From assembly GCA_944323655.1 (NCBI GenBank), contig CALUTL010000002.1:87490-151489 (forward strand): a stretch of DNA of 64,000 nucleotides, read 5' to 3'. Below are positions 1,696 through 55,578 of this stretch, piece by piece; the stretch's first letter is position 1; each line of letters begins with the position of its first letter. The translations under genes and the position numbers were made by a program. The stretch is from Candidatus Gastranaerophilales bacterium (GTDB lineage Bacteria > Cyanobacteriota > Vampirovibrionia > Gastranaerophilales > Gastranaerophilaceae). Under the pieces are notes generated by a model. It did not search any database, was not told the DNA's origin, and worked only from the letters and a program-made list of their open reading frames with translations.

Positions 1696-3981
1696 ATGTA
1701 CGAATTTCCATTTGAACTGGACGAATTTCAAAAAGAAGCTTGTAATTTTATAGATAACGGAAAAAGTGTAGTTGTATGCGCGCCAACAGGTGCAGGTAAA
1801 ACGGTAATAGCAGAACACGCAATTCATAGAGCTTTGGAAAACGGAACAAGAGTTTTTTATACAACCCCCTTAAAGGCTCTTTCAAATCAGAAATTTTATG
1901 ATTTTGCCGCTAAATTCGGTCAGGATAAAGTTGGGCTTTTAACAGGCGACACTTCAATAAATCGTAATGCACAAATTGTGGTTATGACAACTGAAGTTTT
2001 CAGAAATATGCTTTATGGAACAAATTTTGGCGCTGTTGCTGACAATATGAAGGATGTCAGATACGTTGTATTGGACGAAGTTCACTATATGAATGATGAG
2101 CAAAGAGGGACTGTTTGGGAGGAAAGTATAATTTACTGCCCGACAAATGTTCAAATAATTGCACTTTCAGCAACGGTCGCTAACGCAGATGAATTAACAG
2201 ATTGGATTAATACGGTTCATTCTAAAACTGAGCTTATAAATACGGATTTTCGTCCTGTGCCTTTGAAGTTTTTTTATTTTGACAGTTCGCAGCCTTATAA
2301 ACTTCTGCCGCTTCTTACACCCTCAGGCGCTTTGAATAACAAAATTAAGCCTGAGAAAAAGAAATTTGCTCACGGAAAGATGAAGCAAAAAACTTACGTA
2401 AAAGAAGTTGTGAGGAATTTACAACAGAATGATATGCTTCCTGCGATTTATTTTACTTTTTCTCGCAGAAAGTGTGATGAACAAATGGAAAAATGCGCGG
2501 GATTAGAGCTTGTAACAAATGCCGAAAGGGCGCAAATCAGACAATTTATTGATGAATATATAGCGGAAAACCCTTATCTATATAATAACAAACATATAGA
2601 ATATCTTCTTTGCGGGGTAGCCTCTCATCACGCAGGGCTTTTGCCGTCCTGGAAATTATTAGTTGAAAAGTTATTTCAAAAAGGGCTTATTAAGGTAGTT
2701 TTTGCAACAGAAACCCTCGCAGCCGGCATAAATATGCCTGCTCGCTCAACTGTAATAAGTTCTACAAGCAAACGAACAGACAGCGGACACAGAATGCTGA
2801 CTGCAAGTGAATTTCTTCAGATGTCAGGAAGAGCCGGAAGACGCGGAATGGATGAAGTCGGCTACGTTACAATTGTCGGAAGCCCATTCCAAACACCTGA
2901 AGAAGTCGCAGAACTTGTTTTGAGTGACGCAAATCCGCTTGAAAGCAGATTTTCTCCAAGCTATTCTATGGTATTAAATCTTTTACAAAGATTCAGCCTT
3001 GATGAAGCTAAAGAATTAATATTAAAAAGCTTTGGATATTTTTCAACCGGCACAAGGCTTCATCCTATTTTAAAGCAAATTGAGCTTAACAAACGTGAAA
3101 TACAGGAAAGAACTTTTGCCTGTCCTTATAAGTATTCTGACGGTGACTTGATAGAATACGACAAAATACGAAATATCTACGTCCAAAATCGCCAAACTTA
3201 CAAAAAAATATGCAAACAGGAAAAAGCTAAAAACAGACCGCTTTCACCTGAAGCAATTCAATTTGGGCGAGAAACCAAAGCAATGCTTGCAAAAATGCAC
3301 GAATTTCACTGCGATATCTGCAAAATGTATAAAAAACATTCTAAAAACATCGAAGTTATAGGGCGATTAAATTTAAAACAAAAGAAGCTTGAAAAAGAAG
3401 TCGAAAAACAGCGTGATATTTTCTGGAATAAATTTTTATCCCATAGAAGTGTCTTAGCGGATTTTGGCTATCTTGAAAACGATTATCCGACCGCAAAAGG
3501 TATAACAACATCCCAAATTCGTTCTGAAAACGAACTTTATCTTGCAGAAATTATTTTTTCAGGCGTTTTGGAAAGCCTGACTCCATCGCAACTGTCAGCA
3601 GTAATTTGCGCAGTTGTGACAGAAGATTTGAGAATTGAAATCCCTTATATTCCGTTCTCAGAGCCTGTCAGAAAAACACTTAATCTCATACGCAACATCC
3701 GCCGCAAAATTGAAAAAGTTCAAAATAACCGTGATGTAGATGCTCCTTTGTACATAAATCCTTATTTCTCATCTCTTATTGAACTCTGGGTTGAAGGAGC
3801 GGAATGGGAGTCAATCTGCGGACAGATTGATATCGGCGAAGGCGATATTGTCAGAGCTTTCAAACGAGTAGTCGATGTTTTAAGGCAATTCACTACAATA
3901 GAAAATGTCCCTGAAGCTCTTGTTTTTACGGCAAGAGAAGCTATTGATAAAATATTAAGAGAACCTGTCGATCTTGATTAA
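1696..3981 (+). CDS. Ski2-like superfamily II DEVH-box RNA helicase
   Basis: This is an ATP-dependent helicase of the Ski2/Mtr4 type, found in cyanobacteria and actinobacteria and thought to act in RNA turnover or processing. Seen in its 761 residues: Walker A APTGAGKT (about residue 30), DEVH box in VLDEVHYM (about 130), SAT motif LSATV, and motif VI QMSGRAGRRGMD (about 375). The C-terminal part (about 560-761) matches the DSHCT helical region in position and character. The upstream ribosome site (AAGGGT) is modest. The stop is followed by a perfect inverted repeat that may end the transcript. The exact RNA substrate is unknown. Confidence 0.9.
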   Translation: MYEFPFELDEFQKEACNFIDNGKSVVVCAPTGAGKTVIAEHAIHRALENGTRVFYTTPLKALSNQKFYDFAAKFGQDKVGLLTGDTSINRNAQIVVMTTEVFRNMLYGTNFGAVADNMKDVRYVVLDEVHYMNDEQRGTVWEESIIYCPTNVQIIALSATVANADELTDWINTVHSKTELINTDFRPVPLKFFYFDSSQPYKLLPLLTPSGALNNKIKPEKKKFAHGKMKQKTYVKEVVRNLQQNDMLPAIYFTFSRRKCDEQMEKCAGLELVTNAERAQIRQFIDEYIAENPYLYNNKHIEYLLCGVASHHAGLLPSWKLLVEKLFQKGLIKVVFATETLAAGINMPARSTVISSTSKRTDSGHRMLTASEFLQMSGRAGRRGMDEVGYVTIVGSPFQTPEEVAELVLSDANPLESRFSPSYSMVLNLLQRFSLDEAKELILKSFGYFSTGTRLHPILKQIELNKREIQERTFACPYKYSDGDLIEYDKIRNIYVQNRQTYKKICKQEKAKNRPLSPEAIQFGRETKAMLAKMHEFHCDICKMYKKHSKNIEVIGRLNLKQKKLEKEVEKQRDIFWNKFLSHRSVLADFGYLENDYPTAKGITTSQIRSENELYLAEIIFSGVLESLTPSQLSAVICAVVTEDLRIEIPYIPFSEPVRKTLNLIRNIRRKIEKVQNNRDVDAPLYINPYFSSLIELWVEGAEWESICGQIDIGEGDIVRAFKRVVDVLRQFTTIENVPEALVFTAREAIDKILREPVDLD

Positions 3982-4038
3982 TAATAGGTTGAAAGACAGA
4001 AATAAGTGTAATTTTGCCTCTATTTAGTTTTGTAAAAA

Positions 4039-4060
4039 CTTTGTTGCTTTTGCAACAAAG
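4039..4060. repeat. 22-nt perfect inverted repeat
   Basis: CTTTGTTGC and GCAACAAAG flank a TTTT loop. It lies 57 bp after the helicase stop and just upstream of the -35 box of the next gene. It could be the helicase terminator, although its T tract is poor, or an operator for the downstream promoter. Confidence 0.6.
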
Positions 4061-19851: not shown

Positions 19852-21828
19852 TTAGCTGAAGTATTTAAAATGTCTTTCTACGTTCTTATCCAAAGCTGAT
19901 TTTATTGAATCATATTCGGTTTGAAGGGCTTCATGTTCTGTATCTATATCCTTCAATTCTAAGTCATACAATTTATCTTTTGCTTGAATTTTGTTTGTTT
20001 CACGGGTATATTCTGCTTCAGCCTGGGTAATTAGCAAATCTATTGTATCTTCTGTTATATCACTACAATTTGAATACATTGTAGATACCCATTGAGATTC
20101 ATCATCTACCTGAATCATGCTTAATAAGCCGCTTTCAAACGCATACTGAATCCAATCGGCACTTTTTGCAAGTTCTGCTGATATTTCTTGATATCCGTCT
20201 TCATTCATTTTATTAAAGATATTTGTATACCATTGAGCCTTTGCTTCTGCGTTTTCATCCGGATTGTTTTTGTCAATCCATGTATATTTTGGTGCTCCAA
20301 ATTGATCTATCATTTGTTCTATCAAATATACATCAAGAACCGCTTCAAAGTTTGTTTGATACTCAACAGGTTGAGTAACTTCGCCAATAACCTGCTCAAT
20401 TGTTACAGTGGTTGTACTGTCAAGATTTGTTGTCGGAATACCGCTTTCGTTTATAATCCAGTACATATCGTCAAGGTTATCGTAATTTTCTGGCCCGATA
20501 TCCTTACCAAAAATGAACATTGATAACTGTTTTGCTGCTGTTTCATAAGCTGCTTTTTCTGTTGGCGCTAAGGCTGAGAATTTGTCTCTATCCATTTGCG
20601 AAAGAATGTTTTGATTAAAATATTTGTATATATATTTAACTTGTTCGGCAACTTTTTCTTTTGACGCATTTTCTTGAATTTCAGCAGTTTTATTATCCAA
20701 ATTGAATGTACAAGTACCGCTTCCTGTTGATGTTGTACCGTCACCATTATCTTCGGTATAAGTATATGTGAAAGTATAGGTAGAACCCGAACCGGTTACT
20801 GCGCCACAAGAATAGGTTATACCCTCTTCAGATGGCCCGGTAGCTGTATATGCACCGGTATTCTCATCTTTTGTAATTGTGAAAATTCCGTCTATACTGT
20901 ATGGCCCAGGATCTGTTCCTGTGATACCAACTTGGTTTGTTATTACAGCACCGCTTCCGTTAAATGATATTGAGTCATTTAGTAAATAGTCCATGTTTTC
21001 ATAGAATATTGATGGTTCAACTGTCCCGTCTGGTTTTTTTATTTGCGTATCAATATATTTATTTGACACTAATTCGCCAAACATTGTTTTGAGGTAATTC
21101 AAAGCCTCTTGAGAGCCTGATATCTGGTCTGTCTTGGTTCCGCCAACGACATCATTATACATGTCTTCGTATGGTGTTGTGAAACCTTGTGGTTTGTAGC
21201 CATATAGATAATTTTTCATCTCTTTGACTACGGCACTTGTATATGCTTCATCTGCCTTTGTATAATCACTGAGCAATCTTTCATAAACACCTATTTCTGT
21301 AGATGTTTTTGACATTTCATATCCGTAATGATAACCGCTAATTCTGTCTCCGTTTTCATCATATTCTATATCACCTTCATATCTGGCTCTCATATCTTCA
21401 CTAAGCCCGTTTGTATCCCAATATGAAGTGTCATCTTTTTCCAAACCATAAAGTTTTAAAAATTCTGTTAACGCATCAGTATCTTCATTAGCTTCTGCTG
21501 CTGCTAGTGCTTGTTCGTATTTTGCAGCTTCTAGCTCTGTCACAACCATTTCTCCTGATTTATTTATCAATCCGTATTGGTTGTTATAAGAGCTGTATGC
21601 TGTCAAACTGTTATAAGTTAATTGCTGATAAAGATCATTTCCTTGGAAATCTTTATTTGACATCATTAATTGTGTCTGATTTAAGGCATTAATATATTTT
21701 TCGCTTGCCTTTGACGAATCTTCGGTAAGACGTATTTTAGCATTGTTAATCAACTGCGCCCGTAATTCGTTATCCGACATACGGGAGGTTATTGATAATA
21801 ATCTGGCTTGTGATGCTGCCATTCCCAT
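19852..21828 (-). CDS. Large signal-less protein with axial-protein-like architecture
   Basis: Family not named. The 658-residue product lacks a signal peptide and starts MGMAASQARLLSITSRMSD, followed by long helices to about residue 110. The centre (about 290-390) is Gly/Ser/Thr-rich and beta-like (GSGSTYTFTYTYTEDNGDG). The last 60 residues are a charged helix (EYTRETNKIQAKDKLYDLEL to ERHFKYFS). Helical ends around a variable beta centre, with no signal peptide, is the plan of flagellar hook, hook-associated and flagellin proteins, but I see no specific motif of those families. A TAAA-N16-GCCGATAC promoter lies upstream, which matches the flagellar sigma consensus. Function is unproven. Confidence 0.65.
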   Translation of the reverse strand: MGMAASQARLLSITSRMSDNELRAQLINNAKIRLTEDSSKASEKYINALNQTQLMMSNKDFQGNDLYQQLTYNSLTAYSSYNNQYGLINKSGEMVVTELEAAKYEQALAAAEANEDTDALTEFLKLYGLEKDDTSYWDTNGLSEDMRARYEGDIEYDENGDRISGYHYGYEMSKTSTEIGVYERLLSDYTKADEAYTSAVVKEMKNYLYGYKPQGFTTPYEDMYNDVVGGTKTDQISGSQEALNYLKTMFGELVSNKYIDTQIKKPDGTVEPSIFYENMDYLLNDSISFNGSGAVITNQVGITGTDPGPYSIDGIFTITKDENTGAYTATGPSEEGITYSCGAVTGSGSTYTFTYTYTEDNGDGTTSTGSGTCTFNLDNKTAEIQENASKEKVAEQVKYIYKYFNQNILSQMDRDKFSALAPTEKAAYETAAKQLSMFIFGKDIGPENYDNLDDMYWIINESGIPTTNLDSTTTVTIEQVIGEVTQPVEYQTNFEAVLDVYLIEQMIDQFGAPKYTWIDKNNPDENAEAKAQWYTNIFNKMNEDGYQEISAELAKSADWIQYAFESGLLSMIQVDDESQWVSTMYSNCSDITEDTIDLLITQAEAEYTRETNKIQAKDKLYDLELKDIDTEHEALQTEYDSIKSALDKNVERHFKYFS

Positions 21829-49604: not shown

Positions 49605-50270
49605 TTAAACAAGCCCTTCCTTCATTGCAGTCGCAATAGCTTTGGCACGTGATCCTACATAAAGCTTCTGCAAAATACTGTGAACATGAGTTTTGGTTGT
49701 TGAAATTGTAATCACAAGCTTATCAGCAATTTGAGGATTAGTAAGCCCGTCCACAATCAATGCCAAAACCTCCATCTCTCTTTCGGTTAATCCGTATAAG
49801 TTTTTGCCTAATTTATAATTGATTTCACCACGCCTTTGCTGAGGCTGAGTATTTCTTCTTACGTTTGTTAAAACAACTTTAGCTATGGCAGGATCAAGCC
49901 AACCGGCCCCTTCGCTTACCGCCAAAACCGCAGACACTGTCTGCTCCGAAGTTGCGCCTTTTGTTATATAACCGTCGGCTCCCGCTTGAAATGAATCAAA
50001 GATATCATCCTCATCTTCTCTTGATGTGTACATCAAAACTTTAATCCTTGAATTGGCAAGTTTAATTTTTTTTGTAGCTTCAATCCCGTCAATAGTCGGA
50101 AGCCCGATATCCATTATTACAACATCAGGCTCTAATGATAATGCTTTATCTACACCCTCTTGACCGTCGGATGCCATATCTGCTATTTCTATATTCGGAT
50201 TTTTGCTCAAGATTACCGAAAGCCCCATCCGTGCCATATCGTGATCTTCAACTATCAAAACCCTAACCAT
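49605..50270 (-). CDS. NarL/LuxR-family response regulator
   Basis: A 221-residue response regulator. Receiver domain (about 1-120) with VLIVEDHDMARMGL, phospho-acceptor Asp in VVIMDIGLPTIDG and KVLMYTS; a linker rich in Gln/Arg; then a LuxR-type helix-turn-helix (about 155-215: LTEREMEVLALIVDGLTNPQ, VITISTTKTHVHSIL). It overlaps the sensor-kinase gene by 8 nt and abuts the secreted-protein gene, so the four form one unit. It most likely receives phosphate from the kinase. Confidence 0.93.
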   Translation of the reverse strand: MVRVLIVEDHDMARMGLSVILSKNPNIEIADMASDGQEGVDKALSLEPDVVIMDIGLPTIDGIEATKKIKLANSRIKVLMYTSREDEDDIFDSFQAGADGYITKGATSEQTVSAVLAVSEGAGWLDPAIAKVVLTNVRRNTQPQQRRGEINYKLGKNLYGLTEREMEVLALIVDGLTNPQIADKLVITISTTKTHVHSILQKLYVGSRAKAIATAMKEGLV

Positions 50271-51849
50271 TTACAACCTGTCTTTCTTCGTTTGATTTTA
50301 CAACATCTGTCAAAAGGAAGGTAAATTCACTTCCTTTATTTATTTTGCTTTCAACCCAAATTTTGCCGCCATGAGCCTCTATTATCTGACGTGAAAGGTA
50401 AAGCCCTAAGCCCGTTCCCGTTGATCTTTTACGGCTTGTCCCCTGTGAAAATCTAGTAAATAACTGCGGAATGTCAGATTTCGGTATGCCGTTTCCGTTA
50501 TCCTCTACTGAAAAAATTAAATCGCCTGCTTGGGCTTTCAAAATTATTTTTATATGACCTTCTTTGTTCGTATAATTAACTGCATTCCCGCATAAATTCG
50601 TAATTACACGTTTTAATTCACCTTTGTCGGCTAAAATTTCAAGCCTTTCATCAAATTCGCACTCCAATTCAAGCGATATATTCTTACTTTTTGCAAGCGG
50701 CATTAATTCTTCAATGCACTGTTCCACAAGAGTTCTCGGAGCAAAAACCGTTTTGCAAAGCTCAAGCTTTCCGCTGTCAAACCTGTAAACTTCCAGTAAC
50801 GCATTTACAAGCCCCAGCAAATCCTCATTACTTTGAAGCATCGTTGATAATAGCACTCTCTGCTTGTCATCCAAATCGCCCAATGAACCGTCCAGAAAGA
50901 ATTTTAAAGTCTGAATTGCCGCAAGCAGCGGGGTTCTTAAATCGTGAGTCAGAGTTGCTATAAAATCATCTCTTAGACGTTCAGTCTCTTTTTGCGTTGT
51001 AACATCTCTTATTACACCTACATACTTTTCAGGTAAATCTCCGCTATCATCACTTATTGCCGCAAGATTTATTTCAACAGGAGTCATTGCCCCGCTTAAA
51101 GAATTAACAACCGAACAGTCTTTTAATAAAATCTCGGAATTGTCCGAATTTAACCCGAATAAACCGCCGTTATCAGAAATCATATCACGCTTGCAGCCTT
51201 TCACAAATTGAGTGAAAAGCTTTCCGATAATTGCTCCGCCGTCAACTCCGGTCATATTCTCACATGCCGGATTTATCTGCTCAATTTTGCCATCACTGTT
51301 TAGTATTATTATCCCGTCAGCGCAATGATTAATAATCCCGCTTAATTTCTGGTTTGCTTGAGATAAATCATGGGTTCTTTCGGCAACAAGTCTTTCCAAA
51401 TCGTTGGAATAAATCTCTAGCTGCTTTTTAGCTTCTTCCAATTCAGATATTTTTTGTCTTAAATCACTTAAAAGATGACTTCTTTCAATACCGTTTCGGA
51501 TATTCATTAACAAATCGTCGTTATCCCAAGGTTTTTCGATATACTTATAAAGCCCGACTTCATTAATGGCTCTGATTGCATTTTCCTTATCAGCATATCC
51601 CGTCAAAAGTATCATACTCGTTTCGGGATACATTTTCTTTGCTTCACGCAAAAACTCCAATCCGTTCATCTCAGGCATTAAAAAGTCCGAAATAATTAAA
51701 TCTGGAGCTTCTTTCTTCATATATTCAAGAGCTTCTTTAGGCGAATTAAAAAACACACCGCCCTTTATTCCCTCGACTGCAAATAAAGTCCTGAATGCCG
51801 AGGTAACCATTTTTTCATCATCTACAACTATTATTCCGGAATTTTCCAT
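50263..51849 (-). CDS. Hybrid sensor kinase: receiver-PAS-HisKA-HATPase
   Basis: A cytoplasmic histidine kinase. I start at 51849 (MENSGIIVVDDEK), giving 528 residues; the longer frame from 51906 would run through the promoter. The N-terminal receiver (about 5-120; LIISDFLMPEMNG with the acceptor Asp, LLTGYADKENA) is followed by a coiled coil, a PAS domain (about 165-285), HisKA with DFIATLTHDLRTPL, and HATPase boxes (AVNYTNKEGHIKI, VEDNGNGIPKSD, STGTGLGLYLSRQII). The receiver-first order is unusual for kinases and suggests it takes a signal from another phosphotransfer protein. It lies between the FlhA-like and NarL-type genes. Confidence 0.93.
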   Translation of the reverse strand: MENSGIIVVDDEKMVTSAFRTLFAVEGIKGGVFFNSPKEALEYMKKEAPDLIISDFLMPEMNGLEFLREAKKMYPETSMILLTGYADKENAIRAINEVGLYKYIEKPWDNDDLLMNIRNGIERSHLLSDLRQKISELEEAKKQLEIYSNDLERLVAERTHDLSQANQKLSGIINHCADGIIILNSDGKIEQINPACENMTGVDGGAIIGKLFTQFVKGCKRDMISDNGGLFGLNSDNSEILLKDCSVVNSLSGAMTPVEINLAAISDDSGDLPEKYVGVIRDVTTQKETERLRDDFIATLTHDLRTPLLAAIQTLKFFLDGSLGDLDDKQRVLLSTMLQSNEDLLGLVNALLEVYRFDSGKLELCKTVFAPRTLVEQCIEELMPLAKSKNISLELECEFDERLEILADKGELKRVITNLCGNAVNYTNKEGHIKIILKAQAGDLIFSVEDNGNGIPKSDIPQLFTRFSQGTSRKRSTGTGLGLYLSRQIIEAHGGKIWVESKINKGSEFTFLLTDVVKSNEERQVVNG

Positions 51850-51858
51850 AACATTTAT

Positions 51859-51887
51859 ATAATAAAGTATTTTGTCATTACAGACAA
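51859..51887 (-). promoter_or_regulatory. Promoter of the sensor-kinase gene, leaderless type
   Basis: TTGTCT, 17 nt, TATTAT, then nine nt to the ATG at 51849. It lies in the 60-nt gap after the FlhA-like gene, so the kinase can be expressed alone. Confidence 0.55.
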
Positions 51888-51888
51888 A
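51871..51888. promoter_or_regulatory. Inverted repeat overlapping the kinase promoter
   Basis: TTTGTC-N6-GACAAA is a perfect 6-bp dyad that covers the -35 box of the kinase promoter. This is the position expected for a repressor or response-regulator site. Confidence 0.4.
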
Positions 51889-51909
51889 TAGGTTACAAAT
51901 TCGCAATAA

Positions 51910-53682
51910 TTAGATTTCGCACAATTGCACGACTTCTATATCTTGAGATAATTCGGCAAATGACATAACTCTTATATTATCAATATGCTTTGACAAAATA
52001 TCAAACAGCGGTTTTCTTATTTTTGGAGAAACAAGAAGAACCAAATCTTCTCTATGTTCATCAAGTTCATTGAGCTTCTCCAATACGGAAGTTACCAGAT
52101 TTTCAAGCTCTGAAGCTTCAAGCTTAATAAAATTACAAAAATCCGTCACGCATACAGAATTAAATAGCTTATTCTCCACCTCGTGACTTAACTCTGCCGT
52201 ATACAAAACCGGTTTATTATCGGTTTTAATTGTGTATTTATCGCAAATTTGAGGAGCCATCTCTACTCTTAGGCGCTCTACTAATACATTCGGACTTGTA
52301 TTTAATCTTGCTACTTCACAAAGCCTTTCGAAAATTAATATCACGTCTTTTATAGGTATTTCCTCCTGCACAAGCGCTACAAATATTCTCCTTAAATCCA
52401 CAGCCGAAATCATTGTAGGGATTAAATCATTTACAAGAGTAGGATTTTCGCTTTCCACAAGTGTCATAATCTTTAAAATATCCGTACGGCTTATTATTTC
52501 ATTTGCATATTTTATACAGCATCGGCGTAAATGCGTTTTTATAAGCTCTACTATCTTGGCATTAGAAAGTCCCGCTTCTGCAAAAAATGTATCTCTTCTT
52601 ACACCTCGTACATAAATACCAAATTCATTGGGTTTGTATGACATATCGTCCATGCATCTTATATTTGGCATTATATACCCCAGAGTATCCGTTAATTCCG
52701 TTCTCAGATTAGATATCATAGGTAAAAGACAATTTTCGGCATCTGGATCCGCAAAATCTATTAAATCTGAACCTAATCTTATTGAAAGAACATCTACACC
52801 TAACCTTTGGTACATTTCGTTCGGACCGTTTAGTTGCACTTCATCATTTTGGCTTTCACTATCCTTAGAATGCAAACTATTGATTATCCAACTGACGCCG
52901 GACGAATCATAATTGGTTATCTTAATTACTGTGTCAACTAAGGCAACCAAAAGCCAGCCCAAATAAAATCCCCAAACGATTTTCATATATGCAGAATTAA
53001 TTTTTGTAACATCCGATAATATAAATGTCAGATAAAGGAACGGAATAACTGATAGAAAGTAAAATATAAACCTGAACTTGTGAAGTTTTATCCATTTTTT
53101 TATGCTGTTTAAGTAAACGCATCTGCCGTTCAAACTTGTAAATAAATCTTTTTTGGTTTCTTTAGGCATATCGTCTTCAATACTGCTTTTTTCAAGCTCC
53201 TTATAGGATTGGGCAAGTGCAAAGGTATATATACCTTTATCAATCTTCTTATCCGAATATAGTTTGCTTAAAACAGACCGATACACTGATTTTACAATAT
53301 CAGCCGTAATTTTTGCGTAATCATTAGACCTTAGACTTTCTTCCGTAATCTCTTCTACAGTATTCTGTTCTACAAGATGTTCATAAATAGAAGAATTGAT
53401 GCTGCTTAGTATTGAATCGTGAAATTCAATCGGCACATCGCCATAAATCAAATCTACAATCTTATAGAAAGTCCATTCCGCAATTGTTCTTGTTATAATT
53501 TCACAGGCTTCTACTTTCACGGAAGGATTCTGATAAAGTGATTTTGCGGCCACCATGGCACTGTCATATACATGCTTTCTCACATATTTTTCCATTGCCT
53601 CATCAAAATAATCAGGACATCCCCCGCCTATCTGAAATCGAAGCATATTCACAAAATCTTTATAGTTAAAGTCTCTGCTCAT
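51910..53682 (-). CDS. FlhA/SctV cytoplasmic-domain protein with own membrane anchor
   Basis: The C-terminal 300 of 590 residues match the cytoplasmic ring domain of the flagellar/type III export gate FlhA/SctV, which docks export substrates and chaperones. Matching segments in order: LGVDVLSIRLGSDLIDF, LRTELTDTLGYIMPNIR, YKPNEFGIYVRGV, IKTHLRRCCIKYANEII, NPTLVNDLIPTMISAVDLRR, EEIPIKDVILIFERLCEVA, LVLLVSPKIRKPLFDIL and the end VMSFAELSQDIEVVQLCEI. The normal N-terminal gate with eight helices and the FHIPEP motif is missing. In its place are 200 helical residues and two membrane helices (about 204-222 and 233-254). About 50 residues of the ring's second subdomain are also missing. It heads a cluster with a kinase, a regulator and a secreted protein. 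Function unknown. Confidence 0.8.
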   Translation of the reverse strand: MSRDFNYKDFVNMLRFQIGGGCPDYFDEAMEKYVRKHVYDSAMVAAKSLYQNPSVKVEACEIITRTIAEWTFYKIVDLIYGDVPIEFHDSILSSINSSIYEHLVEQNTVEEITEESLRSNDYAKITADIVKSVYRSVLSKLYSDKKIDKGIYTFALAQSYKELEKSSIEDDMPKETKKDLFTSLNGRCVYLNSIKKWIKLHKFRFIFYFLSVIPFLYLTFILSDVTKINSAYMKIVWGFYLGWLLVALVDTVIKITNYDSSGVSWIINSLHSKDSESQNDEVQLNGPNEMYQRLGVDVLSIRLGSDLIDFADPDAENCLLPMISNLRTELTDTLGYIMPNIRCMDDMSYKPNEFGIYVRGVRRDTFFAEAGLSNAKIVELIKTHLRRCCIKYANEIISRTDILKIMTLVESENPTLVNDLIPTMISAVDLRRIFVALVQEEIPIKDVILIFERLCEVARLNTSPNVLVERLRVEMAPQICDKYTIKTDNKPVLYTAELSHEVENKLFNSVCVTDFCNFIKLEASELENLVTSVLEKLNELDEHREDLVLLVSPKIRKPLFDILSKHIDNIRVMSFAELSQDIEVVQLCEI

Positions 53683-53727: not shown

Positions 53728-53756
53728 ATTATATATTTTTTATCAAAACTTCGCAA
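53728..53756 (-). promoter_or_regulatory. Promoter of the FlhA-like gene
   Basis: TTGCGA, 17 nt, TATAAT; leader about 40 nt. Confidence 0.6.
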
Positions 53757-53830
53757 CTTGTTAAGAACACACCAAGGCAGGAAAATTATCGTAATTTCCC
53801 TGCCTCATAACTATAACTCTCTTTCAAATT

Positions 53831-54343
53831 TTATGAACTGTAAGTATGCTGCTTGTATTCTCTTGAGCCAAGCTCCTTATCCAAATGGTACAAAGCAGCT
53901 TTTTCAGAACCGAACATCTTTAGCTTTTTAATAATTTCATCTACATTCGCTTCTTCTTCTACCTGTTCTGATATATACCAGTTTATAAAATATCTTGTCG
54001 CCAAATCGCATTCTTCATCCGTCATATTGGCAACACAGTTTATGCTGTCGGTTACGTATTTTTCATGCGCATAAATTTTTTCAAACACTTCTAAAGGATT
54101 CCCGAAATTTTCTTCGGGCATTTCAATCTGTCTTAATGAAACTCGCCCTTGACGGTCTATTATATAATCGAAAAGAATCATACCATGATCTACCTCTTCG
54201 CGTGCTTGAACTTTTGTCCAGTCAGCAAAACCTTTAAGACCCATTTCATCAAAATGTGCAGACATAGCAAGATACAAATAAGCTGAATAAAATTCTTTGT
54301 TAATCTGCTCGTTAAGTATGTTTTGAATTTTTTCACTAATCAC
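53831..54343 (-). CDS. ftnA: Ferritin
   Basis: A 170-residue bacterial ferritin that oxidises and stores iron. I use the GTG at 54343 (first residues ISEKIQNILNEQINKEF), since GGGAGG lies about 7 nt upstream; it overlaps the superoxide reductase gene by 8 nt. Ferroxidase-centre segments are NEQINKEFYSAYLYLAMSAH, QAREEVDHGMILFDYI and WYISEQVEEEANVDEI. Linked with superoxide reductase, it should bind iron released in oxidative stress. Confidence 0.94.
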   Translation of the reverse strand: MISEKIQNILNEQINKEFYSAYLYLAMSAHFDEMGLKGFADWTKVQAREEVDHGMILFDYIIDRQGRVSLRQIEMPEENFGNPLEVFEKIYAHEKYVTDSINCVANMTDEECDLATRYFINWYISEQVEEEANVDEIIKKLKMFGSEKAALYHLDKELGSREYKQHTYSS

Positions 54344-54731
54344 GTTTTCCCTCCCATAACCCGTGTAAATTACAGTATTCATAAGCAAAATCAAGAAAAT
54401 CCTGATCTTTTACAAAAAATTTTGCTTCATCACCGGGGTATAAATATCTGAGTTCTAATTTATTTTTATCTTTAGAAATCGCTTCAATAAACATTATATA
54501 GTGATTTTCTTCCATAGGATGCGGTGTTGACCCGACTGCAATAATGTCATTTCCGTTATCATCCTTCATAAAAACAGGAACATGTTTTTCTGTTTTCCCT
54601 TCATCCTCTTTCTGCGCATTTAAAAGCTTCATCGGCTCGCCGCAGCAAACAAGTTCGCCCTGACCTTCAAGAATGACCTGAACAAGATTTCCGCAGACAC
54701 TGCACCTATATAGTTCTAGTCTTTGAGTCAT
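54336..54731 (-). CDS. dfx: Desulfoferrodoxin (superoxide reductase)
   Basis: A superoxide reductase of 131 residues that turns superoxide to peroxide without making oxygen, typical of anaerobes. The N-terminal desulforedoxin site has Cys10, Cys13, Cys29 and Cys30 (YRCSVCG and LVCCGEPM). The catalytic iron site has HVPVF, STPHPMEENHYIMF and the Cys/His pair in YCNLHGLW. It is co-transcribed with ferritin through an 8-nt overlap. Confidence 0.95.
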   Translation of the reverse strand: MTQRLELYRCSVCGNLVQVILEGQGELVCCGEPMKLLNAQKEDEGKTEKHVPVFMKDDNGNDIIAVGSTPHPMEENHYIMFIEAISKDKNKLELRYLYPGDEAKFFVKDQDFLDFAYEYCNLHGLWEGKRD

Positions 54732-55152: not shown

Positions 55153-55578
55153 TTAATAACTAATACCGACAGGAACAAATTGACCTTTTGAATTGTATCC
55201 GTAATTTATCTGTCTGCCTCCGATGCCTGTCGGGACGTAGTTTCCTTTCGGGTTATACCCATACTGTATATGATTACCGCCGATTCCGGTCGGAACATAA
55301 TCCCCACGAGGATTATACCCGTAATCTATTTTATTACTGCCGATTGACGTCGGAACGTAATCTCCTCTTGAATTATATCCGTAATTTATTTTATCATTTC
55401 CGACAGATACTGGAACATAATCTCCTCTTGGATTGTATCCGTAATTTACACGCTGACCGTCTACTGATATCGGAACATAATCGCCTTTTGCATTATACCC
55501 GTACCGTATATCGCCTGCTATTACAGAAGTCGATGAAATCAAAAGCATCGAAAAAATTATAATAAAAACTCTTACCAT
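55153..55578 (-). CDS. Secreted protein of six 20-residue YGYNPRGDYVP repeats
   Basis: A 141-residue exported protein with a signal peptide (FIIIFSMLLISSTSVIAG) followed by six tandem units. The consensus is close to NYGYNPRGDYVPTGIGGNKI; the last unit is cut short. The repeats vary in residues 13-20 but keep YGYN, G and the VP pair. This looks like a solenoid or ligand-binding surface, but I do not recognise the family. TATAAT lies 9 nt before the ATG, with no ribosome site. Confidence 0.7.
   Translation of the reverse strand: MVRVFIIIFSMLLISSTSVIAGDIRYGYNAKGDYVPISVDGQRVNYGYNPRGDYVPVSVGNDKINYGYNSRGDYVPTSIGSNKIDYGYNPRGDYVPTGIGGNHIQYGYNPKGNYVPTGIGGRQINYGYNSKGQFVPVGISY

Follow-up and report, generated by a model that had tools for sequence, protein, structure and literature searches.

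A gate-less FlhA ring domain lacking subdomain D2, fused to a helical N-domain and a predicted membrane hairpin in a Gastranaerophilales bacterium

Within a 64,000-nucleotide stretch of a Candidatus Gastranaerophilales genome (referred to below as the window), a gene at 51910..53682 on the minus strand encodes a 590-residue fusion protein in which a helical N-domain and a predicted membrane hairpin are joined to the cytoplasmic ring domain (FlhA-C) of the export protein FlhA, deprived of both its gate and its subdomain D2. Our preferred reading, which we hold tentatively, is that this fusion is an accessory ring subunit that does not receive cargo and tunes the cell's own, apparently filament-less, export apparatus.

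The N-domain (residues 1-160; 53203..53682, minus strand as for all parts of the gene) is predicted to form a bundle of about six helices. It is followed by the predicted hairpin of two hydrophobic helices (residues 205-223 and 231-249; 52936..53070) and by the FlhA part, which begins with a first segment of D1 (residues 285-361; 52600..52830). A short linker (residues 362-375; 52558..52599) occupies the place of D2, approximately residues 427-482 of Salmonella FlhA, and leads to the second segment of D1 (residues 376-396; 52495..52557), in which T383 aligns with Salmonella T490. D3 (residues 397-475; 52258..52494) and D4 (residues 476-590; 51913..52257) complete the protein. Profile matching and structure comparison both identified the FlhA-C fold with D1, D3 and D4 all present, as the preliminary description of this DNA had proposed for a domain of the FlhA/SctV type. 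D1 and D3 are the best-kept parts when compared to the cell's own FlhA (53% identity over the first segment of D1 and 56% over D3), whereas D4 is the least conserved (30%). In a search of the whole genome, the fusion matched positions 306-397 and 445-656 only of the FHIPEP profile, and its score of 170 bits did not reach the NCBIfam FlhA equivalog cut-off of 772.1. Neither the profile search nor a hydrophobicity scan detected the multi-helix gate with its FHIPEP signature, whose absence had already been noted; the identical scan found two hydrophobic segments in the fusion (within residues 205-249) versus seven in the cell's FlhA. Judged by these comparisons, the fusion carries the ring domain of FlhA but not its gate, and the suggested origin of the ring from the export apparatus is borne out.

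The first hairpin helix is preceded by five lysine or arginine residues in 15, a clear bias that is weak in the relatives P0046 and P0047 (1/15). The predicted hairpin would place both soluble parts of the fusion on the cytoplasmic side. Pairwise comparison by hhalign gave an E-value of 0.0013 (probability 18) against FlhA helices 7-8 and of 0.022 against small N-domain proteins, with five controls ranging from 0.062 to 0.36. A link of the hairpin to the small N-domain proteins (probability 94) was set aside, as the comparison included the end of the N-domain, which could have driven the score.

The same genome carries an operon of flagellar type, fliE-fliF-X-fliH-flhA, in which X is a protein standing at the position of fliG. 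This fliG-position protein matched the N-domain of the fusion in a search of the genome (E-value 3.9e-12), and the reverse search with its own profile recovered the fusion (E-value 1.6e-21). The kinship was also found by BLASTP (5e-12) and through bridging small proteins, and the order of helices is similar in two structure models. On these sequence comparisons, the N-domain of the fusion is homologous to the N-terminal helical domain of about 160 residues of the fliG-position protein. The preliminary description had spoken of a new membrane scaffold; the helical region and two predicted membrane helices are indeed there, but the scaffold is not new, its N-domain being shared with the cell's own fliG-position protein. 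The two proteins differ otherwise. The fliG-position protein continues with a proline-rich linker and another C-terminal half, with no hydrophobic helix found and no FlhA part, while the fusion lacks this half, ends in FlhA-C and is encoded outside the fliF-fliH operon, between a ferritin gene and a histidine-kinase gene. No FliG match was obtained for the fliG-position protein with Pfam or NCBIfam. Its C-terminal half possibly resembles the N and M domains of FliG, a suggestion based on gene order and on middling structural Z scores (5.4-6.6, some with an rmsd of at least 14). The small N-domain membrane proteins (220-314 residues) likewise carry no FlhA part; in P0151 the N-domain precedes two hydrophobic helices, in P0152 four. 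A third N-domain protein of 274 residues is encoded in the same genome on contig C14 (L141 1254-2078; profile match 1.1e-22, no Pfam match). In G233, from another family of the class, a helical-looking, N-domain-like protein of 170 residues (L138 2279-2791, minus strand) was recognized by eye between the fliF-like and fliG-position genes.

The deletion in the second subdomain of the ring, previously estimated at about 50 residues, amounts to about 45 and corresponds to D2. Residue 362 of the fusion falls at chain position 71 of 6ch1 (Salmonella residue 426) and residue 376 at position 128 (Salmonella 483), so that about 56 residues of Salmonella FlhA are reduced to 13. We counted the gap by alignment over all rows for the 47 full-length family members (P0001-P0047, clustered at 90% identity) found among the best 120 of 841 matches: the D2 stretch has 16 or 18 residues in 47/47 of these proteins versus 61-63 in 71/71 FlhA-type proteins, with 63 in the cell's own FlhA. 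By this alignment, the internal deletion is real and conserved.

Chaperone-substrate complexes dock in the cleft between D1 and D2 of FlhA (PMC5932034, PMC8166844), where the dimple residues D456, F459 and T490 at the interface bind FlgN, FliS and FliT with their cargo (PMC8166844). D456 and F459 fall inside the deletion and have no counterpart in the fusion, leaving T490 alone of the dimple set, as T383. The idea that the fusion is a gate-less docking platform for such complexes can thus appeal to the presence of an FlhA-C domain and to this threonine, but we regard it as improbable since the missing residues are D2, absent from every one of the 47 family members, and the complexes bind in the D1-D2 cleft. 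The loss of D2 need not end all docking, as in SctV-type rings the D3-D4 surface, rather than D1-D2, may serve cargo (PMC5932034).

The preliminary description had also remarked that no other flagellar or type III gene lies in the window, of which our Pfam scan covered 41 of the 58 open reading frames of at least 100 residues (the fusion and 40 others). The remark does not extend to the cell, which is not without an export system. The genome (1.95 Mb, 99.87% complete) carries an intact, full-length flhA on a contig other than that of the fusion, the export-gate components FlhA, FlhB, FliP, FliQ and FliR, FliO, a FliM/N-type protein and rod genes (two FlgF/G-like and FlgB/C-type). Searches of this genome, the only one covered for flagellin, gave 0 matches for flagellin and 0 for the torque domain FliG_C, each control being positive in 4/14 named genomes. 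These absences fit a report that, among nine Gastranaerophilales genomes, complete flagellar gene sets were found in three only (PMC4040986). FlhA-type matches were present in 190/191 sampled genomes of the family, among the matches listed, which points to a flagellum-derived export apparatus being widespread in the sampled family, flagellin having been sought in the fusion's own genome only.

How the fusion might act on this apparatus can be outlined from its parts. By way of its N-domain, the fusion would reach the fliG-position protein and with it the base of the machine, a guess that follows homotypic logic. The linker of FlhA contacts D1 and D3 of the ring neighbour (PMC8166844), and the cytoplasmic domain of Chlamydia pneumoniae FlhA binds the C-terminus of FliF (PMC2830194). 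Retention of D1 and D3, the parts of FlhA in contact with the ring neighbour, would let the fusion cap or join the FlhA nonamer, as their conservation suggests. Since much of the chaperone cleft is gone, the fusion could not take chaperoned late cargo; as a consequence, the machine would have fewer receiving sites and its export could be biased towards rod-type or unchaperoned cargo, or its flow lowered. Mutants of the FlhA dimple showed increased secretion of FlgE and FliK in one genetic background (PMC8166844). More specifically, the fusion could be a blank ring subunit devoid of the cargo-receiving wing D2, which shares the N-domain of the fliG-position protein, engages both layers of a machine lacking motor and filament, and sets what that machine exports; in this complete form the proposal is doubtful. 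If the fusion does join the FlhA ring, it would constitute a natural experiment on the role of D2 and on the setting of substrate choice. Alternatively, the fusion could stay outside the FlhA ring and act as a decoy or brake that lowers export by titrating, at the membrane, either FlhA itself or its partners of the FliH, FliI or FliJ type. A decoy had been among the roles first proposed and is possible, if unlikely: the fusion retains D4, FliJ has its binding site in the cleft that D4 domains leave between them (PMC8166844), and a promoter-like site of its own would permit separate control, yet of the FlhA parts that remain D4 is conserved least, and no inhibitor phenotype is known.

The same genome encodes a second gate-less FlhA-C protein (L042 7318-8793, contig C7), 491 residues long with a weakly DUF4177-like start. 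Both are gate-less FlhA-C proteins of the same cell, but this paralogue keeps the D2 stretch (60 residues versus 63) and the scan found no hydrophobic helix in it. In the FlhA-C tree, which four of the six soluble paralogues sought entered, it forms a separate, strongly diverged clade from the fusion. Its best matches reached an E-value of 1e-74 or lower in 184/191 family genomes (hand count), while six further genomes gave FlhA-level matches only (1e-37 to 1e-41) and one gave none, all among the matches listed. No flagellar gene was recognized by eye among its neighbours. The divergence of this second paralogue, the conservation of D1 and D3 and the location of the fusion gene and the export operon on different contigs would all suit an independent membrane ring, a homo-oligomer built through D1-D3 that displays N-domains for a job unrelated to export. 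This too seems rather unlikely, given that the N-domain ties the fusion to the fliG-position protein and that all seven fusion-bearing genomes also show an FlhA-length match (six) or the fliG-position protein (G104), a co-occurrence with flagellar genes that the preliminary description had suggested looking for.

Compared to FlhA/SctV proteins of the FHIPEP family, the fusion has the fold and sequence of D1, D3 and D4 in common but lacks the gate and D2 and bears a foreign N-domain. Export genes kept without a full flagellum, as here, are known from Chlamydia pneumoniae (FlhA, FliF and FliI) and from non-motile Gastranaerophilales (PMC2830194; PMC4040986). No gate-less or D2-less FlhA paralogue is described in the sections of these two papers drawn on here, nor did one appear among the titles and openings of abstracts listed by our searches of the open-access literature. 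The fusion is built from known parts and is not a new kind of system, the literature negative applying to open-access sources.

Full-length orthologues of the fusion were found in 7/10 sampled genomes of the genus, and none appeared among the matches listed for the other 181 sampled genomes of the family. As the three genus genomes without it still hold the fliG-position and flhA genes, the fusion is dispensable. Gene order in the other six fusion genomes is the same as in the window: desulfoferrodoxin, ferritin (53831..54394, minus; the upstream gene at 7/7 fusion loci), fusion, a REC-PAS-HisKA-HATPase histidine kinase (50263..51849, minus) and a NarL/LuxR-type response regulator (49605..50270, minus). 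A terminator-like inverted repeat, read from the sequence, follows the ferritin gene (53776..53804, minus) and is also present at the empty site of G160, where the kinase is 95% identical and the ferritin terminator runs directly into the kinase leader. The fusion is likewise missing at this site in G050 and G175. Upstream of the fusion lies a promoter-like site, TTGCGA-17-TATAAT (53728..53756, minus), whose TATAAT begins 29-51 nt upstream of the ATG in 7/7 orthologues, with a variable upstream hexamer. The fusion is an optional cassette, and it likely has its own promoter. It adjoins the kinase on the same strand in 6/7 loci, at a distance of 60 bp in the window; in G143, an extra gene for a 238-residue protein consisting of the N-domain only (L041 7148-7864, minus) overlaps the end of the fusion gene and precedes the kinase. 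This arrangement is the only positive evidence for the sensor role also raised earlier, and for the fusion being a signalling partner of the adjoining kinase and regulator. The latter is very improbable, since kinase and regulator are paired in eight genomes without the fusion there, the 60-bp leader of the kinase gene (51850..51909, minus), with its sequence TATTGCGAATTTGTAA, is kept in the three of these that were compared, and identity between G000 and G078 is 97% for the kinase against 74% for the fusion. The fusion is tied to the kinase by gene order and nothing further; co-evolution with the kinase/regulator pair, which persists in genomes without the fusion, was rejected as unsupported.

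The frame is open in 7/7 loci. Between G000 and G078, the closest relative (one genome pair), the 74% identity of the fusion goes with a dN/dS of 0.12, at a dS of 1.39 that is near saturation. Constraint is strongest on D3, the slowest part to evolve (96% identity, dN/dS 0.034), while the membrane part evolves fast, with saturated synonymous change. A frameshifted flhA, the explanation feared at the outset, is not what we see. An accessory distribution and a fast-evolving membrane part might also be expected if the gene were a decayed or misassembled flhA, but 47 distinct proteins from independent genomes share this intact architecture, which, with the low dN/dS and the intact flhA on another contig, makes this reading barely credible. 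For the same genome pair, dN/dS was 0.032 for the kinase, 0 for the regulator, 0.163 for desulfoferrodoxin and 0.127 for w55717 (68% identity). Fast evolution was not retained as a special mark of the fusion, which evolves faster than most neighbours, yet similarly to w55717 and desulfoferrodoxin. In a poorly resolved tree of kinase and regulator, from which outgroups G014 and G006 were dropped (no motif match) and in which G007, cut to 46%, forms a long branch, four changes between presence and absence of the fusion are needed. G160 nests with G000 and G078 (100/99), and at least one loss of the fusion gene is therefore likely on this tree.

Shorter FlhA-C proteins provide a further view of D2. 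The D2 stretch has 18 residues in 3/5 of them and in L043 of G039, and 62-63 residues in 2/5. Since P0143-P0146 and L043 end 64-67 residues past the PTLV motif, versus 181 in FlhA, they lack most of D4; L043 (6095-6979 in G039) and P0143-P0146 are thus gate-less FlhA D1-D3 proteins. D2 is missing by the same length as in the fusion from P0144-P0146 and L043, whereas P0143 retains D2 and two hydrophobic helices. In the tree, where their grouping carries a long-branch warning and the fork joining fusion and FlhA as sisters has a support of 89/67 only, those of the truncated proteins that were entered form a clade apart from the fusions, together with the D2-bearing P0143. It is on this account likely, though uncertain given the long branches, that D2 was lost at least twice. 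If a second gate-less FlhA lineage did undergo a D2 loss of the same size, D2 would be a detachable cargo module, and export rings could combine subunits that receive cargo with others that do not. The cited sections of the flagellar papers describe FlhA-C as a unit of four domains belonging to the gate protein. In the fusion, evolution has split the ring-making parts from the gate as well as from the cargo wing and has reused them; the cell retains an intact FlhA, and its genome gives no match for flagellin or the torque domain.

Two other proteins encoded in the window were noted. A 658-residue protein without a Pfam match (19852-21828, minus) starts with MGMAASQAR, a peptide at the beginning of four genes in the genome (0 for a reversed-pattern control); one such gene lies about 7 kb from fliE (L075 10679-12247 versus 3705-4052 for fliE). 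Possibly, these proteins constitute a family of export substrates. A 141-residue protein (55153-55578, minus), also without a Pfam match, carries repeated units of the YGYNPRGDYVP type after a signal-like start, and is encoded near the fusion in 4/6 of the other orthologue loci as well as in G160, which has no fusion.
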